From Lentibacillus sp. Marseille-P4043 (lineage in GTDB: Bacteria; Bacillota; Bacilli; Bacillales; Amphibacillaceae), in contig NZ_LT984884.1 in NCBI RefSeq assembly GCF_900258515.1, positions 3,860,820 to 3,924,819 on the forward strand: a DNA stretch of 64,000 nt, given 5' to 3'. The notes beneath the pieces were generated by a model that saw only the letters and a program-made list of their open reading frames with translations, ran no database searches and was not told the origin of the DNA. Shown here piece after piece: positions 1,278-61,531 of this stretch. Made by a program: the position numbers and the translations under genes. Each line of letters begins with the position of its first letter. Within the stretch, counting starts at the first letter, position 1.

Positions 1278-3353
1278 TTATAGAGAGTCTTCATAACGCT
1301 GCAGCCAATTTATTATCCGGTTATTAATTTTATTTGACGGTGTTTTAATGTCTCTCTCAATATTACTTAAATATGAAACAGATACTTCCAAATCATCAGC
1401 TACTTGCAGTAAAGTGAGTCCAAATCTTTTTCGTATAGCTTTCATTTGCTTCCCTAATTTGTCCTTTTTTTCTTCCCCACTATGATTTCCAATGTATCCT
1501 GTAGTGGTACTTCTAACACTTTTGGCTCTTGTAATGGCACTGTATTTTTCCTTGATTACCTTAGGAGGATCAATAAGAATAGTTGAATTGGCCCATATGC
1601 GAGCCCAACCATTAGACGAAACGATAGATTCATCCCATTTCTCATACTGCCACGAAGCAATTAGGCCAGCTTCCGTTAAGCTGTCAAGCGCATGTTCTAA
1701 TCTATCTCTTGTACGGGACGGTGTACGTATATTCATTTTCTTACCAATTGCATCTAGCAAACTGCTTATTTTATGTGGCTGTAGATAATCTCCCTTCCTA
1801 GCCTGTGTCCTCCATCTCCAACTTAAGTATCTGATAAGCTTTTTTTTCCACACTTCTTGATATGGGTTGTATTGCAATGCTTGTACTGGAAGCATTGCAA
1901 CTTGTCTCCCCGAACCATTTAGATATTTAGCAAAGACTTCATCTACAGTAAATCTGAATAATTTTTCCAGTGGTTGTTTACTTATATCATATTCTTTGTA
2001 ATCTTGATTAAAAAAAACAAACGTGCGTCCTTTAAGCGTTTTTTGCATTGGTTTCCCTTTTTCATATACAACAGCCTTTTCCAAGTCAATCCACAAATTC
2101 TGTATCCTTGATAACGCTTTCAAAATTTGGCTACGTTGCTCATTTTCATATCCCCCTCGGCGGCCACTCCCACTAAGCTTTGGTTTTAAGCCACGAATGG
2201 ATAATAAATCATCAAGATATATTTCTACAATATCTTGGTGGTGTGTTGAATTTGCTAGATAAAAACTGCAAAGCGCATCCAATACGTCTGCGTCTAATTC
2301 TGACATTTCCTTTGCCTGTCGCCAGGATTCACTAATTCCTGTCTCATCAACCGTTAAATCGTGTTTGTCGAGACTGTATGGTTTAATTTGTACTATTCCT
2401 TCAATGGTATTTTTGCTTATTTGTGCTGTGGGAAATGGGCTATGACTTGATCTATCAAAACGTTTGTTGGAAATTGTCTCTCTTACCGACTGATAGGCTA
2501 CGTTACTCATCACAAGTAAATTCCCCTTGTCAATTAGTGTAAATGTTATATCGTTTTTTACCGACTTGGCATTGTTAATCGGTAGAGAACTATTATTAAG
2601 GTCCAAAAAATTGTTGATCTCGCTTATTGTGAGATTTTCTACGTCAAGATTGGATATAATTTTTTTAATCCAATTCTGGACACGATATTCAACAACCTTT
2701 CTAAAGTTAACCATAAATTGACCATTAGCTTTTAAGTGTTTTGTAAGGTAGTTATAAAATAACTCATTTAGCTTGGTCGGATCTAATTTTACTAGTTTTG
2801 TATAGCCCGTCTTTTTCACCATATCATCAAGCACCCAATCGGTTAGGTATGATTTAAACCAGCCACAAAAATTTTCCCATACTGTATCATCAGCCAGAAA
2901 CGTTTCATTCCTTAACAGCAATTCTATTTTTTTTATCGCCTTATCTAATAAGGTCTTATCTTTTAACTTAGGATGACGATACATAGAAATCCCAATTATA
3001 TTCTTATATTCCTCTAAGAAATCAGCTACAATTATAGTTGCTATCCGAATAATAAGGTTATCCCTTGCCACAAATCTTAGTTTAAGAAACAGATCCTTAT
3101 TTTCTTGATAGGATTGCTCCCAAATAATAAATGTATCGGTTTCTGTTCTATCCCTAAATATTGGTATATTAGCCTTTTGTCCCCTTACTATATCTTTGGA
3201 AAAAACTTTTAGAATATTTCTGCTATCGTGTGTTTCTTTAGTGTTATTAATATAAAGCACATGAAAATTACAGATCTTTTCTACAAGATAGCCGAATGAA
3301 CCCACAATATTATCATCAGAAATGACACCCTTTGCTATATCAGTATTATTCAA
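1278..3353 (-). CDS. Large DNA-binding protein with C-terminal XRE helix-turn-helix (replication-initiator-like?)
   Basis: A 691-residue protein I do not recognise as a named family. The last ~55 residues are a clear XRE/Cro-type helix-turn-helix (LLQVADDLEVSVSYLSNIER). Residues ~520-630 look like a winged-helix region (RYLSWRWRTQARKG...DRLEHALDSLTEAGLI), reminiscent of plasmid replication initiators. The long N-terminal half has no motif I can name. The start chosen is TTG at 3353: GGAGGTG stands six bases upstream, while an earlier in-frame TTG at 3368 overlaps that ribosome site and is unlikely. The gene stands alone with its own terminator and no plasmid, recombinase or phage gene beside it. 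It could be a relic of an integrated plasmid or a large regulator; the replication idea is inference. Confidence 0.6.
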   Translation of the reverse strand: MNNTDIAKGVISDDNIVGSFGYLVEKICNFHVLYINNTKETHDSRNILKVFSKDIVRGQKANIPIFRDRTETDTFIIWEQSYQENKDLFLKLRFVARDNLIIRIATIIVADFLEEYKNIIGISMYRHPKLKDKTLLDKAIKKIELLLRNETFLADDTVWENFCGWFKSYLTDWVLDDMVKKTGYTKLVKLDPTKLNELFYNYLTKHLKANGQFMVNFRKVVEYRVQNWIKKIISNLDVENLTISEINNFLDLNNSSLPINNAKSVKNDITFTLIDKGNLLVMSNVAYQSVRETISNKRFDRSSHSPFPTAQISKNTIEGIVQIKPYSLDKHDLTVDETGISESWRQAKEMSELDADVLDALCSFYLANSTHHQDIVEIYLDDLLSIRGLKPKLSGSGRRGGYENEQRSQILKALSRIQNLWIDLEKAVVYEKGKPMQKTLKGRTFVFFNQDYKEYDISKQPLEKLFRFTVDEVFAKYLNGSGRQVAMLPVQALQYNPYQEVWKKKLIRYLSWRWRTQARKGDYLQPHKISSLLDAIGKKMNIRTPSRTRDRLEHALDSLTEAGLIASWQYEKWDESIVSSNGWARIWANSTILIDPPKVIKEKYSAITRAKSVRSTTTGYIGNHSGEEKKDKLGKQMKAIRKRFGLTLLQVADDLEVSVSYLSNIERDIKTPSNKINNRIINWLQRYEDSL

Positions 3354-3635
3354 TGTAAACACCTCCAAATGGATAACTTATGCATATATCGTATCATACC
3401 TCTTGTTAAGATTCTATATTTTCTGAATTTATATTTGACGAATTCTGAGTTATTAATTAAAACCTTTTCACTTAGAATAAAGATATAATTTAAGCGATAC
3501 TAGCGTTACATACATAGATGTAGTCAATGTATTCTGTAAACATCATTCCTGTAATTTTAGCCAAAAAGGAAAAGTTTAATCAAAGGTGGTTCCATCATTT
3601 GTTGGGTTTCCAAACCGACCCACCTATATTTTATC

Positions 3636-3682: not shown

Positions 3683-3957
3683 TGTATTTTGCAATTTAAA
3701 TTTGAGCCACTTGAAATTAGAGGAATTCACAAACTTAGATAATATATTTTATAACTGCGTACGATTGACTTGGAGCCTCTAAGGGCATGATTACATTGCG
3801 AAAGCGTGCGGTGGAAAAGATTTCGCACCCATAATCAGGGTATCATGCCCGCCTCTCCATATAAATCCAATTAAGTTTTGCGGTAAATAAAATTCACAAA
3901 CTTATAGTGGCTCAATATTGAGTTGTCATGTGGCTCATTTTTCGATTGCCATATACA
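3683..3957 (+). mobile_element. 275-bp non-autonomous IS21-like element (MITE-type), copy 1
   Basis: The left tip TGTATTTTGCAAT and the right tip CCATATACA correspond to the ends of the IS21-family element at 59083-61531 (TGTATTTCGC / CCATATACA). The repeated GAGCCAC motifs of the IS ends occur at both ends here as well. Flanks are AAAGA and AAAGG, a 5-bp target duplication with one change. There is no transposase frame. The centre (about 3772-3864) holds a folded core: GGAG/CTCC, then GGGCATGAT/ATCATGCCC, then GCGAAA/TTTCGC, ending in GGTATCAT. The same core with different bases occurs in the element at 15251-15465. The element lies inside a candidate small-RNA gene, between promoter and body. 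Confidence 0.7.
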
Positions 3958-3962
3958 AAAGG

Positions 3963-4103
3963 CATAACTAATAAAGACCGAAGATACGCCAATATCTTCG
4001 TCAGCAATGGGTCACTCCCTTTCTAGAAGAGGAAACGCTGGCAAGAATAGACTTTATCAGGCTGGTAAACTAAGAATGGTCCATTTTTTATGGGAAAAGT
4101 ATA
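3963..4103 (+). ncRNA. Candidate small RNA, copy A (cut off from its promoter)
   Basis: The segment aligns with the intact copy at 19682-19831. Stem 1 is GAC-c-GAAGATA paired with TATCTTCGTC. Stem 2 is built on TCCCTTTC/GAAGAGGA. The final stem around the conserved loop CTGGTAAACT leads into a run of six T. Compared with copy B, both arms of stems differ in ways that keep pairing, though the last stem carries mismatches here. The promoter lies at 3636-3667, on the far side of the inserted element, so this copy is probably silent or transcribed only by read-through. I do not recognise the family. Confidence 0.5.
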
Positions 4104-15133: not shown

Positions 15134-15250
15134 GAGCGAATCCAAGCACTCATATACCATTGGAACGGGAAGAAAGTGTCACCAAAGAGAGCTTCATTAC
15201 TGCGCATTATATAGCTTATGTGTCATAAACAACAAATGTTTTCGGTGGGA

Positions 15251-15465
15251 TGTATTTTGCAATGCGAGTTCTTAGAAAATTGCAATCACAAATCGAGAAT
15301 GTTGCAACTTGACACGGAGCCTCTGTGAGCATGAGTGATTAGCCAAGAAGCCAGCTGTAATAAGGCTTGGCTAAGTTGATCATGGTATCATACTCACTTC
15401 TCCGTATAAAGTCGCAACGGCTTAACCCCCTTGCAATACTCTCGACTTTTACTTTGCACTAAACA
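15251..15465 (+). mobile_element. 215-bp non-autonomous IS21-like element (MITE-type), copy 2
   Basis: Tips are TGTATTTTGCAATG and, inverted, TGTTTAGTGCAAAG. Flanks are TGGGA (15246-15250) and TGGGA (15466-15470), a perfect 5-bp target duplication. TTGCAAT-type repeats occur several times inside both ends. There is no coding frame. The core at about 15308-15406 has the same plan as copy 1 with different bases in both arms: CGGAG/CTCCG, GTGAGCATGA/TCATACTCAC, and AGCCAAG/CTTGGCT. GATCATGGTATCAT is nearly constant. Confidence 0.7.
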
Positions 15466-15513
15466 TGGGACGAGTAATCGCAGTCCCAATCCTTTAGAAA
15501 ACAGCCTAACAAA

Positions 15514-19681: not shown

Positions 19682-19831
19682 AGAGACAAGAAATTAGTCA
19701 TAAACTAATAAAGACCGAAGATACGCTAATATCCCCGGTCAGCAATGAATCGCTCCCCTTCAAGAGGGGTCAGCACGAGTAAGGAATAGACCTCACTAGC
19801 CTGGTAAACTCAGGGAGGTCTATTTTTTATG
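19682..19831 (+). ncRNA. Candidate small RNA of about 150 nt, copy B (intact)
   Basis: It has its own promoter and ends in a strong terminator, AATAGACCTC paired with GAGGTCTATT then T6, whose loop contains CTGGTAAACT. Upstream stems are GACCG-aa-GATA paired with TATC-cc-CGGTC, and CCCCT/AGGGG. Copy A keeps the same three stems with changes in both arms. There is no open frame of note inside. It is convergent with lrgB. I do not recognise it as a known riboswitch, T-box, 6S or SRP RNA. Confidence 0.6.
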
Positions 19832-29599: not shown

Positions 29600-29706
29600 T
29601 AAGAAACATGGACAAAGTTTTACTTTCTAAAAGATTATTTGTTTTGGCACAAAATCTATAAACTGCGACGTAACTATAGAATCGCTCTCCGCCGAACTCT
29701 TGATCA

Positions 29707-30455
29707 GGTTGATGTTTCGCGTTTCGGGTTGATGTTCTCGCGTTCGGGACGATGTTTTCTCGCTCGCGCCGATGTTCTCGCGCTCGGGACGATGTTTTCT
29801 CGCTCGCGCCGATGTTCTCGATCTCGCGCCGATGTTCTCGGATTCGCGCCGATGTTTCGCGTTTCGCGCCGATATTCTCGATCTCGCGCCGATGTTCTCG
29901 CGCTCGCGCCGATGTTCTCGCTCTCGCGCCGATGTTCTCGCGTTTCGGGCCGATGTTCTCGCTCTCGCGCCGATGTTTTCCCGCTCGCGCCGATGTTCTC
30001 GCGTTCGCGCCGATGTTTCGCGTTTCGCGCCGATATTCTCGATCTCGGGACGATGTTTTCTCGCTCGCGCCGATGTTCTCGCGCTCGCGCCGATGTTTTC
30101 CCGCTCGCGCCGATGTTTTCCCGCTCGCGCCGATGTTCTCGCTCGCGCCGATGTTTTCCCGCTCGCGCCGATGTTCTCGCGTTCGCGCCGATGTTTCGCG
30201 TTTCGCGCCGATGTTTTCCCGCTCGCGCCGATGTTTTCCCGCTCGCGCCGATGTTCTCGCGCTCGGGACGATGTTTTCTCGCTCGCGCCGATATTCTCGA
30301 TTTCGTGCCGATGTTTTCCCGCTCGCGCCGATGTTCTCGCGCTCGCGCCGATGTTCTCGGATTCGCGCCGATGTTTCGCGCCGATATTCTCGCTCTCGCG
30401 CCGATGTTCTCGCTCTCGCGCCGATGTTTTCTCGCTCGCGCCGATGTTGCCTAGC
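29707..30455. repeat. Array 1: about 37 tandem 20-bp GC-rich units
   Basis: Consensus unit CGATGTTCTCGCGCTCGCGC. Most units are exactly 20 bp, a few are 21, 18 or 13. The CGATGTT end and the CGC end are nearly fixed, while the middle varies (TTCTCGCG, TTTTCCCG, TTCTCGAT, TTTCGCGT). The variants recur in the same order, for example the run GCGTTCG / TTTCGCGT, suggesting block duplication. All forward frames are open because no unit contains a stop and 20 is not a multiple of three, so openness is not evidence of coding. GC content is much higher than the flanks. Confidence 0.85.
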
Positions 30456-46096: not shown

Positions 46097-47071
46097 TTAT
46101 TCACTACTAATTATATCATTAATTCTGTCCCGCATTTCCTTCGTATATCCTTGAAGTCCGCCAGTATGAATAAAGAGGACATTTTTCTGATCATCATAAT
46201 TCCCTTGCTTAATTTCGTCCACCATTCCTCTGAAAGCTTTCCCTGTATATGCAGGATCTAAAACAATTCCTTCGCTCTTTGCAAAATCGATATAAAATGC
46301 CAGCTCCTCATCAGTGGCCTTTGCATATCCAATTCCAACGTATTCATCATTAATAAATATATCGTCAAAGTTATCTATATCTTTATCAATGTCTCTCAAA
46401 ATATGGATAATGCTTTCTGTAAATACTTCTTTTGAATCATCAACAGAATAGCCAAGGATTTTCTTTTTTGAATCATCTTGCTTATTCCCATACCAAAGCC
46501 CCGCATACGTCCCGCCAGAACCAACTGCAATATTAATGGAATCAAAATGAATGTTCATGTCTTCTTCTTGTTTTTTTATCTCATCATAACAATTAATATA
46601 ACCATATGAGCCAATTGCGTTAGAAGCACCTACCGGGATGACATATACCTTTTTACCTTGACGTTCTAATTCAATTTTCAGTTCTTCCATCGCGGCTTCA
46701 CGTGAATGGCCATCACCAATCATGTGGACTTCGGCGCCAAGCATGTGATCCAAAAATAGATTGCCTTCAAATTCCTTTACTTCGCCTCTTAGAACTAAAT
46801 GACATTCTAAATTCTCCATTGCACAAACAGCAGCAGTTGCTCTAGCATGATTTGATTGAACTCCTCCAGTTGTAATGACCGTATCATAGCCCTTATCAAG
46901 TGCATCTTTTATGGAATACTCCAGCTTTCTGACTTTATTTCCGGAAATTTCGGTTCCAGTAAAATCATCACGTTTTATAAAAATATTCTTTCCGAGTTTA
47001 TGACTCGTTTTTTCTAGCTTTTGTATTGGTGTACTAAGGTTCGCTATGTTTAACTTTTGCATTTTCTCCAT
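46097..47071 (-). CDS. D-cysteine desulfhydrase / ACC deaminase family PLP enzyme
   Basis: 324 residues of PLP fold type II. The PLP lysine is in SGNKVRKLEY near residue 48. TTGGVQSNHARATAAV near 74 and the glycine loop AVGSGGTYAGLW near 185 bind the cofactor. The family breaks down D-cysteine to pyruvate, sulfide and ammonia, or opens ACC; residues visible here do not decide. Start ATG 47071 has GGAAGG upstream. The frame extends 32 codons further into the adjacent repeat array, but that part is Arg/Glu-rich repeat translation and not credible protein. Confidence 0.88.
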   Translation of the reverse strand: MEKMQKLNIANLSTPIQKLEKTSHKLGKNIFIKRDDFTGTEISGNKVRKLEYSIKDALDKGYDTVITTGGVQSNHARATAAVCAMENLECHLVLRGEVKEFEGNLFLDHMLGAEVHMIGDGHSREAAMEELKIELERQGKKVYVIPVGASNAIGSYGYINCYDEIKKQEEDMNIHFDSINIAVGSGGTYAGLWYGNKQDDSKKKILGYSVDDSKEVFTESIIHILRDIDKDIDNFDDIFINDEYVGIGYAKATDEELAFYIDFAKSEGIVLDPAYTGKAFRGMVDEIKQGNYDDQKNVLFIHTGGLQGYTKEMRDRINDIISSE

Positions 47072-47104
47072 TCTACTTACCTTCCTTTCCCCAGAAAATT
47101 TCTT

Positions 47105-47418
47105 CCGGCGCCGATGTTCTTCACGTTCGGGACGATGTTCTATATTTGGCTCCGTTGGTTCTCGCATTCGGGACGATGTTCTATATTTGGCGCTGATGTT
47201 CTTCGCGTTCGGGACGATGTTCTATATTTGGCTCCGTTGGTTCTCGCATTCGGGACGATGTTCTATATTTGGCGCTGATGTTCTTCGCGTTCGGGACGAT
47301 ATTCTATATTTGGCGCCGATGGTTCTCGCGTTCGGGACGATGTTCTATATTTGGCGCCGATGTTCTTCACGTTCGGGACGATGTTCTATATTTGGCGCCG
47401 ATGGTTCTCGCATTCGGG
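47105..47418. repeat. Array 2: about seven 41-bp units related to array 1
   Basis: Each unit is two ~20-bp halves: CGATGTTCTATATTTGGCGC and CGATGTTCTTCGCGTTCGGG(A). Both halves start with the CGATGTT of array 1. Variants alternate (GCTCCGTTGG against GCGCCGATGG). It lies right upstream of the PLP enzyme gene, separating it from its promoter side, and abuts an antitoxin remnant. Confidence 0.85.
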
Positions 47419-47490
47419 TTTAGGGGGGCTACTATTATCAAAATAACGATTAAATAACTTATTGAGTAATTTGATTTCACCATTATTCAT
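47415..47490 (-). pseudogene. Truncated second copy of the MazE-like antitoxin gene
   Basis: From 47490 the minus frame reads Met-Asn-Asn-Gly-Glu-Ile-Lys-Leu-Leu-Asn-Lys-Leu-Phe then ...Tyr-Phe-Asp-Asn-Ser-Ser-Pro-Pro-Lys. This matches residues 13-35 of the antitoxin at 61619-61780. It then runs into array 2, where the toxin gene would be expected. A matching TTGTATAATT promoter piece lies upstream of both copies. Confidence 0.65.
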
Positions 47491-59077: not shown

Positions 59078-59140
59078 ACAACTGTATTTCGCAAGTGAAA
59101 ATTGAGCCACATCGCAATTTAATTTTGAGCCACTTACTTT

Positions 59141-59887
59141 TTAGTTATTTTTAATCCAATCTTCTGTTTCTCTCATTCGATAAGAAGTACCATTCATATT
59201 TAAAACGTGTGACTTATGAGTTAAACGATCCGTTAATGCTGCTGTTAATACGGCATCGTGGAAGATCTCTTGCCACTTTAAAAATGACAAATTACTGGTG
59301 ATGATCGTTGACTTTCGATCTGCCCTTAAGGATAGATGGGAAAACAGTAATTCAGCTCCTTCTTTATCAAATGAGATATATCCTAATTCATCCAATATTA
59401 CGAGATCATACTTTTCAAATTTTAATTCAAATGATCGTAATGTGCGTTCCGAGCGATGTTCCTTCAATTGATTAATAAAAGAAGGCACTGTCGCAAAGAA
59501 AACACGATATCCGGCTAAACATGCTTCCATTCCTAACCCAATAGCTAGATGCGTTTTACCGGTTCCAGGAGGGCCTGTCAAAATGACATTCCGGCCCTCT
59601 TTAATAAAGGATAGGGTTTTTAGGTCTGGTAGTTTTTGTTGCGCTGGCTTTGGTAATGCTTCTTCTACTAATTCATCTAACAATTTCTTTTGTGGAAAAT
59701 TCGCAGCCCTAATTCGGTTTTGCTTTGCGCGAATTAATCGATCTGCTTTTTCCTGTGTTAATACTTGAAGTAATACATCATATGCCCGTTCTGGATGTTT
59801 AAAATTGCTAGAATCCTGAACCATTTTTCGAATGCTTGGTAGTCTTAAATCCTTACATAACTCAATTAGCTTTGTTTGTTGTTCCAT
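59141..59887 (-). CDS. istB: IstB, IS21 transposition helper ATPase
   Basis: 248 residues, AAA+ DnaC-like. Walker A GPPGTGKTHLA near residue 104, Walker B LVILDELGYISFD near 160 and sensor region TSNLSFLKWQE near 200. IstB assembles on target DNA and recruits the IstA-bound ends. It starts just after the istA stop, the usual coupled arrangement. Confidence 0.93.
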   Translation of the reverse strand: MEQQTKLIELCKDLRLPSIRKMVQDSSNFKHPERAYDVLLQVLTQEKADRLIRAKQNRIRAANFPQKKLLDELVEEALPKPAQQKLPDLKTLSFIKEGRNVILTGPPGTGKTHLAIGLGMEACLAGYRVFFATVPSFINQLKEHRSERTLRSFELKFEKYDLVILDELGYISFDKEGAELLFSHLSLRADRKSTIITSNLSFLKWQEIFHDAVLTAALTDRLTHKSHVLNMNGTSYRMRETEDWIKNN

Positions 59888-59888
59888 T

Positions 59889-61427
59889 TCACACTACTCC
59901 TTCTGTTGTATAAAAAAGATCCTGATAAGCTCGTAGATTCGATTCAGCTTGTTTTGCTATATCATCATTTTCTTCGATCATTGGAGATCCGTCTGATTGC
60001 TCACATATAAACTGAATTCGCTCTGTTGAAATATAATCGAATCGGACTTGTTTCAATTGCTCAATGGCCTTTAATACTTCCTCAAGATTATCTTTTTCCT
60101 TTATAAAATGGAGTAGCTCTAGAAAATCTTTCTCTTTTCCGATATAATACTGTTGATAGATATTTTTAATATGGGTTGGTGCCTGCTTCATACATTGACT
60201 TTGATTCAGGGCACCTTTTTTCTTTTCAAATGTTTTCAAATAGTGATAGATATCCATTTCCCACTGATGAATCCCCCAATTTCGAGGATGGGCCGCCACA
60301 AATTCACCATCAATAAATATTCGAATATGCTCTGCCCCTACCTTGGCACGGATATATTTCCCCACATGTCCCTCAGGGACAGAATAGTGATTTTGTTTAA
60401 TCACAATGGTACTGTATTTATCTACTCGGCATTCAACCAATTCTGCTGCGTCAAATGGGTGAATTGTATTCTTTTTCACTGTCTTTTTCTCTTTTTTCAA
60501 CAGGTCGATATGCTTTTCCTTATATTCATGATGCAGTCGCTGGTTCAATGTTTGTAATACAGTAATTAAATGTTGATTAGCTTCTGTTATGTTTTCGAAC
60601 TTGTATATGGATGAAAATGCCTTCCGCCGTATAAACTCGACACTTCGTTCTACATGCCCTTTTTCATTTCCTTTTCTCGCTTCACATAATCGGATACGAA
60701 ATTGATAATAGTTCGAGATCTGGATCATTGGGTCCGTGATCGTTTTTGCGTTACCAATAAATGATTTCACCACTGTTCGCATGTTGTCGTAAGTAAAGAC
60801 TGCTGGTATAAAATCCAAGTGTTCGATCAGTTTCGCATGTACGTCCAATACACATATTTGAGTTTCCGATTCATATAATCTCGCAAACCGATAATTACTA
60901 TATGGCAACGTAAAAACAGCTAGCGAATAACTTCCTATCTTTCCATCTATCTCTAATTTCACTTCTCCCCAATCAAATTCAACCTCTGCACCTGGTTCAC
61001 AATACTTGCGAATAAACACTTCTCTCTTCTTCTCCGTTTCTTCATTCACATAATTTCTAACCGTTGTATAGCCGATGTTATACCCTTCGTCTCGTAATGC
61101 TTCATACATATCAATCATTTTCATTTGTTGTTTAGCCATGTAATGTTGTTTTTTCCATTCATTTTCAGCAATGAATTGTTGTAACTTCGCTTGTATTTCC
61201 TCTGTAAGGACGCGTTTTTTACTGATTCTTGGTTTATACGTTGGTGCGCTCATAATGTCTTCAGGAATCGGCAACTGTCGAATATCCTGCTGTTTGCTTT
61301 CTTCAAACTTCGCAATGTATTTCTTTATCGTATTCCTTGCGACTTTAGTTGCTTTTGAAATGCTTCTTTGGCTCTCTCCATTTAGATATCTTTTAATAAT
61401 TTCTTGTTTCATGTTCAATGTCACCAC
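59889..61427 (-). CDS. istA: IstA, IS21 transposase (DDE)
   Basis: 512 residues: an N-terminal helix-turn-helix (EIIKRYLNGESQRSISKATKVARNTIKKYI), then the RNase-H-like catalytic core with Asp in VEFDWGEV near 160, Asp in FTYDNMRTV near 215 and Glu in NEKGHVERSV near 262, then the IS21 C-terminal beta domain. First gene of the element. Confidence 0.93.
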   Translation of the reverse strand: MVTLNMKQEIIKRYLNGESQRSISKATKVARNTIKKYIAKFEESKQQDIRQLPIPEDIMSAPTYKPRISKKRVLTEEIQAKLQQFIAENEWKKQHYMAKQQMKMIDMYEALRDEGYNIGYTTVRNYVNEETEKKREVFIRKYCEPGAEVEFDWGEVKLEIDGKIGSYSLAVFTLPYSNYRFARLYESETQICVLDVHAKLIEHLDFIPAVFTYDNMRTVVKSFIGNAKTITDPMIQISNYYQFRIRLCEARKGNEKGHVERSVEFIRRKAFSSIYKFENITEANQHLITVLQTLNQRLHHEYKEKHIDLLKKEKKTVKKNTIHPFDAAELVECRVDKYSTIVIKQNHYSVPEGHVGKYIRAKVGAEHIRIFIDGEFVAAHPRNWGIHQWEMDIYHYLKTFEKKKGALNQSQCMKQAPTHIKNIYQQYYIGKEKDFLELLHFIKEKDNLEEVLKAIEQLKQVRFDYISTERIQFICEQSDGSPMIEENDDIAKQAESNLRAYQDLFYTTEGVV

Positions 61428-61531
61428 TCCCGAAACTCCCCCAATATTAAATTGTAATACTAGGGTATTTTCTAATAAGGTGGCTCAATTTTCAATTGTC
61501 ATTGTGGTTCAATTTTAAGTTACCATATACA

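Follow-up and report, generated by a model that had tools for sequence, protein, structure and literature searches.

A covarying structured core of MITEs in Lentibacillus sp. Marseille-P4043 recurs in unrelated insertion sequence families

Mobile elements of the window

The window analysed is a stretch of 64,000 nucleotides from Lentibacillus sp. Marseille-P4043 (contig NZ_LT984884.1, positions 3,860,820 to 3,924,819), and it holds two types of non-autonomous element (MITE) and an IS21 element. The type A MITE, an IS21-type element of 275 bp on the plus strand (3683..3957), runs from TGT to ACA between the flanks AAAGA and AAAGG, and was delimited from its copies in the same genome, from a comparison of its ends with IS21 and from these flanks. 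The second type, B (15251..15465, plus strand, 215 bp), also runs from TGT to ACA and lies within a 5-bp duplication, TGGGA. The IS21 element (59083..61531, minus strand, 5-bp duplication ACAAC) has ends matching those of type A and is without the core described below. It encodes, on the same strand, the IS21 transposase (istA, 59889..61427; NCBIfam NF033546, E 3.2e-59) and the IS21 helper ATPase (istB, 59141..59887; NCBIfam NF038214, E 3.6e-72).

The right end of the type A MITE is identical to the window IS21 at 44 of 56 positions, as is the left end of its longer sister copy (L002) at 47 of 55, in agreement with the initial annotation, which had taken 3683-3957 for a non-autonomous element with IS21-type ends. 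The flank repeat noted with it agrees in four of five bases (AAAGA/AAAGG); the two features sought in an IS21-derived MITE, IS21-like ends and a short target duplication, are thus both found at this locus. Target duplications were perfect in six of the eight elements checked in this genome, the IS21 included: besides TGGGA and ACAAC these were AATGT (L003), GAGAT (L005), TGTGT (L023) and one of 6 bp, TCCAAT (L004). A duplication was also looked for at L002 and none was evident.

Other copies of type A in the same genome are 94, 92, 81 and 78% identical to it, with one further remnant of 52 bp, and type B has two near-identical copies with perfect 5-bp duplications. A third and more distant core is located at G000:C1:493089-493211 (L024/L035). 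Three IS21 copies (L007-L009) are at least 99.9% identical to that of the window, as compared over the first 1553 bp; none of the eight matches to the core model in this genome lies near them. One remnant in this genome (L006) is also without the core.

Four other features of the window should be noted. A 31-base repeat, 97% identical between its copies, is present beside the type A MITE (3966-3996), where it overlaps a terminator-like hairpin, and again about 16 kb away (19703-19733). Tandem repeats were seen at 29638-30455, with a 20-base spacing beneath four long overlapping open frames, and at 47066-47459, with a 41-base spacing and seven overlapping register copies. An open frame of 696 amino acids on the minus strand (1278-3368) has a C-terminal helix-turn-helix as its sole recognised part.

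Fold and covariation of the core

Both MITE types contain a structured module of about 105-120 nt built on one plan. The type A core occupies 3756..3874 (G000:C1:3864575-3864693), with a match of 123.1 bits to the covariance model (R1) on the plus strand, although, by the strand asymmetry presented below, it is probably the minus strand that folds. The type B core (15300..15420; G000:C1:3876119-3876239, 103.4 bits) is likewise entered on the minus strand with its model match on the plus. In the alignment used here (A4), the type A core extends from P0 to P0' at 3763..3868 and, given without strand, its P1 arm GGAG (3772..3775) is partnered by CTCC (3855-3858) and its P2 arm GGGCATGA (3783..3790) by TCATGCCC (3843-3850). 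By eye, the plus-strand consensus is CTTGACATGGAGCCTCTGCGGGCATGA, followed by a forked top and by TATCATGCCCGCCTCTCCATGTAAAG. Folding energy gave z-scores of -4.25 (3683-3957) and -2.92 (15245-15470), with none of 200 shuffles as low.

The initial annotation had described three stems (GGAG/CTCC, the P2 pair and the P3 arms) and had stated that the middle of the element is not leftover transposase and that its plan recurs at 15251-15465. The stems proved to be real, the middle holds a structured core, and type B has a core of the same plan. The outer stem P0, the hairpin P4, the doubled 5' arm of P3 and the probable opposite folded strand had gone unmentioned.

Compensatory change, first remarked between two copies, extends far beyond them. 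For the alignment, 100 cores were hand-picked for diversity from the 228 distinct places and fitted to the structure of the model, so that the pair counts lean towards that structure: in 99 distinct cores, 92.3% of 2933 cells are standard pairs against 79.6% after shuffling, double-sided changes are found in 25 of the 30 pairs, and double-changed cells number 380 against 121 (sd 14) in shuffles. When partners were slid by 1-3 columns, pairing fell to 33-44%. Column pairs were also ranked by a script of our own, modelled on R-scape and using a tree-based null; of 6903 pairs, the six with the highest scores all belong to the structure (three in P0 and three in P3), four of them at E <= 0.05. The outer stem P0 covaries strongly, and the short hairpin P4 is paired in 80.8% of its cells. 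Neither of the outcomes that had been set against the initial reading, a lack of further copies or stem changes without compensation, occurred.

Certain unpaired letters are conserved alongside the pairing, namely the internal loop letters CCTCT and a G.A mismatch, each kept in 89 of 100 cores. In distant copies (L376-L380) the letters of P2 are replaced and still pair, while P1 and CCTCT are retained. Pairing is thus preserved while letters change, within one conserved fold bearing conserved loop letters. The 3' arm of P3 is often able to pair with either repeat of the doubled 5' arm: in a rough test with overlapping windows, whose pattern fitted 206 of the 228 cores, both arms paired over at least five bases in 176, with mean lengths of 6.6 and 6.8 where shuffles gave 4.4 and 4.7.

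The strand that folds was assessed from mismatches that would read as G.U. These number 94 for the minus strand and 14 for the plus strand in the 99 cores, and 63 against 12 in the 68 cores kept below 80% identity. Without position 13-106 the counts are 52 against 14 by cells, and by columns 11 against 4 (p = 0.12); by carrier rows they are 7 to 5 for stems of IS3 and 7 to 1 for those of IS256. Because this asymmetry favours the minus strand, that strand is likely to be the folding one, and predicted RNA folding energy is also lower for it in 199 of the 228 cores. The folded strand may be RNA or, as the asymmetry points to the minus strand and promoters are not enriched beside the core, single-stranded DNA. 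No enrichment of promoters over a block-shuffled null was detected on either side of the core, a result by which a promoter of its own was rejected.

Distribution over genomes and carriers

A covariance model built from six cores of this genome found eight places in it. A search of the family gave matches in 77 of 146 genomes and 36 of 46 genera (E <= 0.01), often in multiple copies. In the order, 101 of 249 genomes and 67 of 106 genera match (E <= 1e-5), and in a phylum-wide draw 11 of 299 genomes, this one included (E <= 1e-6). When named genomes were scanned with a pattern, at least 120 stretches matched. Among the matches listed are Paenibacillus, Brevibacillus, Lysinibacillus, Sporosarcina and Alicyclobacillus, together with single records of Syntrophomonas and of an Avacidaminococcus MAG. 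One query of phage records returned no match to the core; of two queries of plasmid records, one returned none and the other 12 records. Among plasmids, p83_DSM_105473 of Aliarcobacter butzleri, far from the Bacillota, has a core between aph(3')-IIIa and erm(B) (L397:2420-2630) with a flank that by eye resembles an IS3 right end (that of L160), in a displayed stretch without annotated transposase. In pNe-1 of Aeromonas sp. Ne-1, a record labelled Gammaproteobacteria, the core is directly 3' of an annotated IS3 transposase (L398:2501-2599).

The carrier counts derive from clusters lying no more than 500 nt away, named by NCBIfam from ten representatives. At the 228 distinct places, a transposase gene at 500 nt or less from the core was of IS3 type in 28, IS256 in 23, IS110 in six, ISLre2 in four and IS30 in four, with 163 places having no transposase gene within that distance; a further genome added an ISL3 carrier. 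Comparison of copies at different sites placed the core inside the element for IS3, IS256, IS110, IS30 and ISL3. Relative to the core, the elements extend -1433/+378 (IS110), -1307/+79 and -1287/+47 (IS256), and -176/+1274, -75/+1256 and -82/+1197 (IS3), and the right end lies at +119 in IS30 and at +153/+155 in ISL3. The ISLre2 link is one of adjacency, with one full-length neighbour and fragments whose copy boundaries could not be compared, and IS21 is counted as a carrier by its MITE ends alone. At least five MITE-like repeat types carry the core, with another in genome G534; these MITEs were found via the core itself, so that its retention in MITEs cannot be read from them.

A further 200 of 250 neighbouring ORFs (122 and 78) were scanned, 50 having been omitted by hand as long or overlapping. 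Among the 25 commonest families, IS4-type matches were obtained in two and IS3 in two, a restriction under which a transposase family with a single ORF match could be missed. The core is not a feature of IS21 and is common to unrelated IS families and MITEs; of the initial interpretation, the structured core in an IS21-ended MITE stands, and its attribution to IS21 is too narrow, as IS3, IS256, IS110, IS30 and ISL3 have it too.

In nearly all carriers the core sits 3' of the transposase and before the right end, the arrangement being reversed in one IS3-type fragment (L100). Its orientation to the transposase varies, being antisense in nearly all IS3 loci displayed and sense in IS256, IS110, IS30, ISL3 and one IS3, and for this reason a part acting at the level of DNA fits better than a part of an mRNA. 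Among the 163 loci without transposase, 82 were usable for comparison with co-directional neighbours, and MITE orientation was near even (31 against 25), by which a benefit through the direction of host transcription was rejected.

Presence of the core also varies within families. Of 30 IS256 loci from one query, some of them fragments, two matched the model and 28 did not, and in 12 core-rich genomes 31 of 44 IS3 genes had no core within 150 bp. In genome G338, one of six IS256 copies (L352, compared with L353) has lost most of its core by a deletion joined at a 2-bp repeat within it, the transposase frame and right end being intact.

IS256 relatives without the core bear different inverted repeats at the equivalent place, some of them long near-perfect palindromes and others a second covarying structure. 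Since such relatives have other inverted repeats there, it seems that a strong hairpin ahead of the right end is of use in itself, with the core as one elaborate solution. The second structure, between the IS256 transposase and the right end, reads CTTCCAT..TCAAAGG..CCTTTGA..ATGGAAG with its inner stem exchanged (L361:1443-1543, L363:1464-1565, L367:359-461, L368:332-435 and also L362), and 13 of its 35 predicted pairs show double changes in five sequences. The palindromes, recognised by eye 3' of the transposase at eight loci (L358, L359, L360, L364, L365, L366, L369 and L370), often have a central GGTACC.

Known systems and the possible role of the core

No match at gathering score was found in Rfam (4227 families) over the window cores, nor any in eight further loci with cores or IS256 hairpins, in line with the initial reading, which knew of no described RNA of this kind. 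In a permissive search the first region matched two snoRNA-type models, both with scores far under their cut-offs, and the second region none. An intrinsic terminator was rejected, the stem-loop not being followed by a T-run and the window cores having no terminator-like site, as was a conserved small ORF, the frames and lengths of which vary by eye. Integron attC sites have the conserved feet GTTRRRY and RYYYAAC, and the core, with feet CTTGACA and TGTAAAG in A4, was by eye set apart from them. PATEs of IS200/605 type are not known to have a target duplication, and this identity was rejected as carriers in this genome have one. The IS110 bridge RNA is known only from IS110-type elements and was likewise rejected, the same core being present in IS3, IS256, IS30 and ISL3. 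Like that RNA, the IS1111 seekRNA and the IS200/605 omega RNA, the core is a structured non-coding part near an IS end; each of those three guides one transposase or nuclease and is specific to its family, whereas the core is common to unrelated transposases.

Also comparable are the bcr1 and similar repeats of the Bacillus cereus group, which are also short, non-coding, multi-copy and mobile, with a predicted fold, in Bacillales. However, bcr1 is titled B. cereus group-specific, and the core spans many genera of Bacillota inside named IS families. The mobile or repeat candidates in the available part of PMC11109978, 250 by its count, resemble the core in being covarying, in many copies near transposase genes and possibly DNA-acting; of these, MRSC-65-2 differs from the core in consisting of one long stem with UYCCGG repeats. 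The core may itself be among the 250. Bhal-1, of 74 bp and 36 copies in B. halodurans in the accessible text of PMC2267715, could also be related. No description of the module was found in the openly accessible main text of the literature searched.

A link to transposition mechanism is suggested by the identity of the carriers. The available part of PMC9333248 lists IS1, IS3, IS21, IS30, IS256, IS110, ISLre2 and ISL3 as copy-out-paste-in families, and all families in which the core was shown inside the element are on that list; seven of its eight families are carriers when IS21-ended MITEs are counted. The eighth, IS1, was not seen among the carriers. ISLre2 is included by one full-length neighbour and fragments and IS21 by MITE ends, and the locus L144, with its IS4-type gene, may be an exception. 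In 12 genomes selected for many cores, a core was within 150 bp of 13 of the 44 IS3 genes whose individual scores passed the cut-off (rows that passed it only together with neighbours were omitted), and within 700 bp of none of 109 DDE_Tnp_1 (IS4-type) genes, the nearest being at 800 bp. The count used 122 of 126 model hits, the other four being reverse-strand reads of cores already counted. The Fisher p of 2e-8 for this comparison is too small, as copies recur and are not independent (seven IS3 copies in G177 and 63 DDE_Tnp_1 genes in G310). Elsewhere an IS4-type gene is about 280 bp from a core that belongs to an IS3-type element (L057), and another is about 190 bp from a core that is possibly in a separate element (L144).

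It is tentatively suspected, from sequence comparison, that the core is an exchangeable cis-acting module the folded strand of which is used in copy-out. Under this proposal, copy-out, with its single-strand end joining, figure-eight and replication to give a minicircle, would leave a strand close to the right end single-stranded; that strand, probably the minus strand, would fold and offer a host factor a handle. Rolling-circle plasmids have single-strand origins, which are strand-specific folded hairpins whose loops are conserved and which start the synthesis of the complementary strand. The host factor would most likely start or steer second-strand synthesis in a similar way, the origins being likened to the core as a possible mode of working alone and not by sequence. 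MITEs could use the core because it would act on the element's own DNA and require no element gene.

In a rather unlikely alternative, the core would insulate transcription, an RNA hairpin 3' of the transposase stopping or slowing transcripts before the right end or the joined ends of the minicircle, where the junction promoter lies. Families that form circles would have the greatest need of this, so that the restriction by family is explained equally well, and the location of the core, in almost every carrier on the 3' side of the transposase, and the other hairpins of core-less IS256 relatives also agree with it. However, T-runs at the hairpin foot are found in 12.9% of plus strands against 15.0% of random flank 20-mers and in 4.1% of minus strands against 12.3% (194 cores), neither window core has a terminator-like site within it, orientation to the transposase varies, and a plain terminator has no need of the conserved CCTCT. 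The cis role of the folded strand is still only a possible one, and is favoured over insulation because simple tests go against both a terminator and a promoter, the core is not fixed in its orientation to the transposase and the orientation of MITEs is near even.

Core sequences sort only partly by carrier: in a tree of 120 columns with few firm branches, 29 labelled rows show nine changes of transposase label where four is the least possible, and over all groups 21 changes were counted against a shuffled mean of 27.8, with none of 200 shuffles as low. This partial sorting, and the several genomes that hold more than one type of carrier, would suit a selfish mobile hairpin that spread among IS elements and MITEs and rides on their movement. 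Such a hitch-hiker is unlikely, as no empty site with a clean and precise junction came to light, the strong covariation of the flanking stem P0 makes the flanks part of the structure, and the sole deletion seen (L352) joins within the core. The lower folding energy of minus-strand RNA, and the two alternative foldings that the doubled P3 arm would permit by the rough test above, would accord with a regulatory RNA carried as cargo, transcribed from the minus strand and acting in trans on host or transposase; the lack of promoter enrichment on either side and the near-even orientation of MITEs to their neighbours make this quite improbable. Lastly, the compensatory changes might stem from palindrome-correcting template switching and not from selection on the fold, given that such correction takes place in long imperfect inverted repeats, of which the core is one. 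This is already disfavoured and very improbable, as the unpaired CCTCT and the G.A mismatch persist, even in distant copies with wholly different P2 letters.

A broader form of the cis role, somewhat doubtful at present, is that of a general accessory to copy-out-paste-in transposition. One folded, strand-specific module would be passed between unrelated IS families, be present in their MITEs and bring host replication, or some other host factor, to the figure-eight or the minicircle, and the other hairpins of IS256 would be its functional replacements.

What is new here is the module, together with its occurrence across IS families, and not a proven mechanism. One non-coding part common to transposons with unrelated transposases would be an unusual case, and in Bacillales the core can serve as a marker for unannotated MITEs. 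The conversion of figure-eight to circle by host replication in copy-out-paste-in elements is, to our knowledge, poorly understood, and a cis module common to several copy-out families, if true, would give a direct handle on this host replication step.
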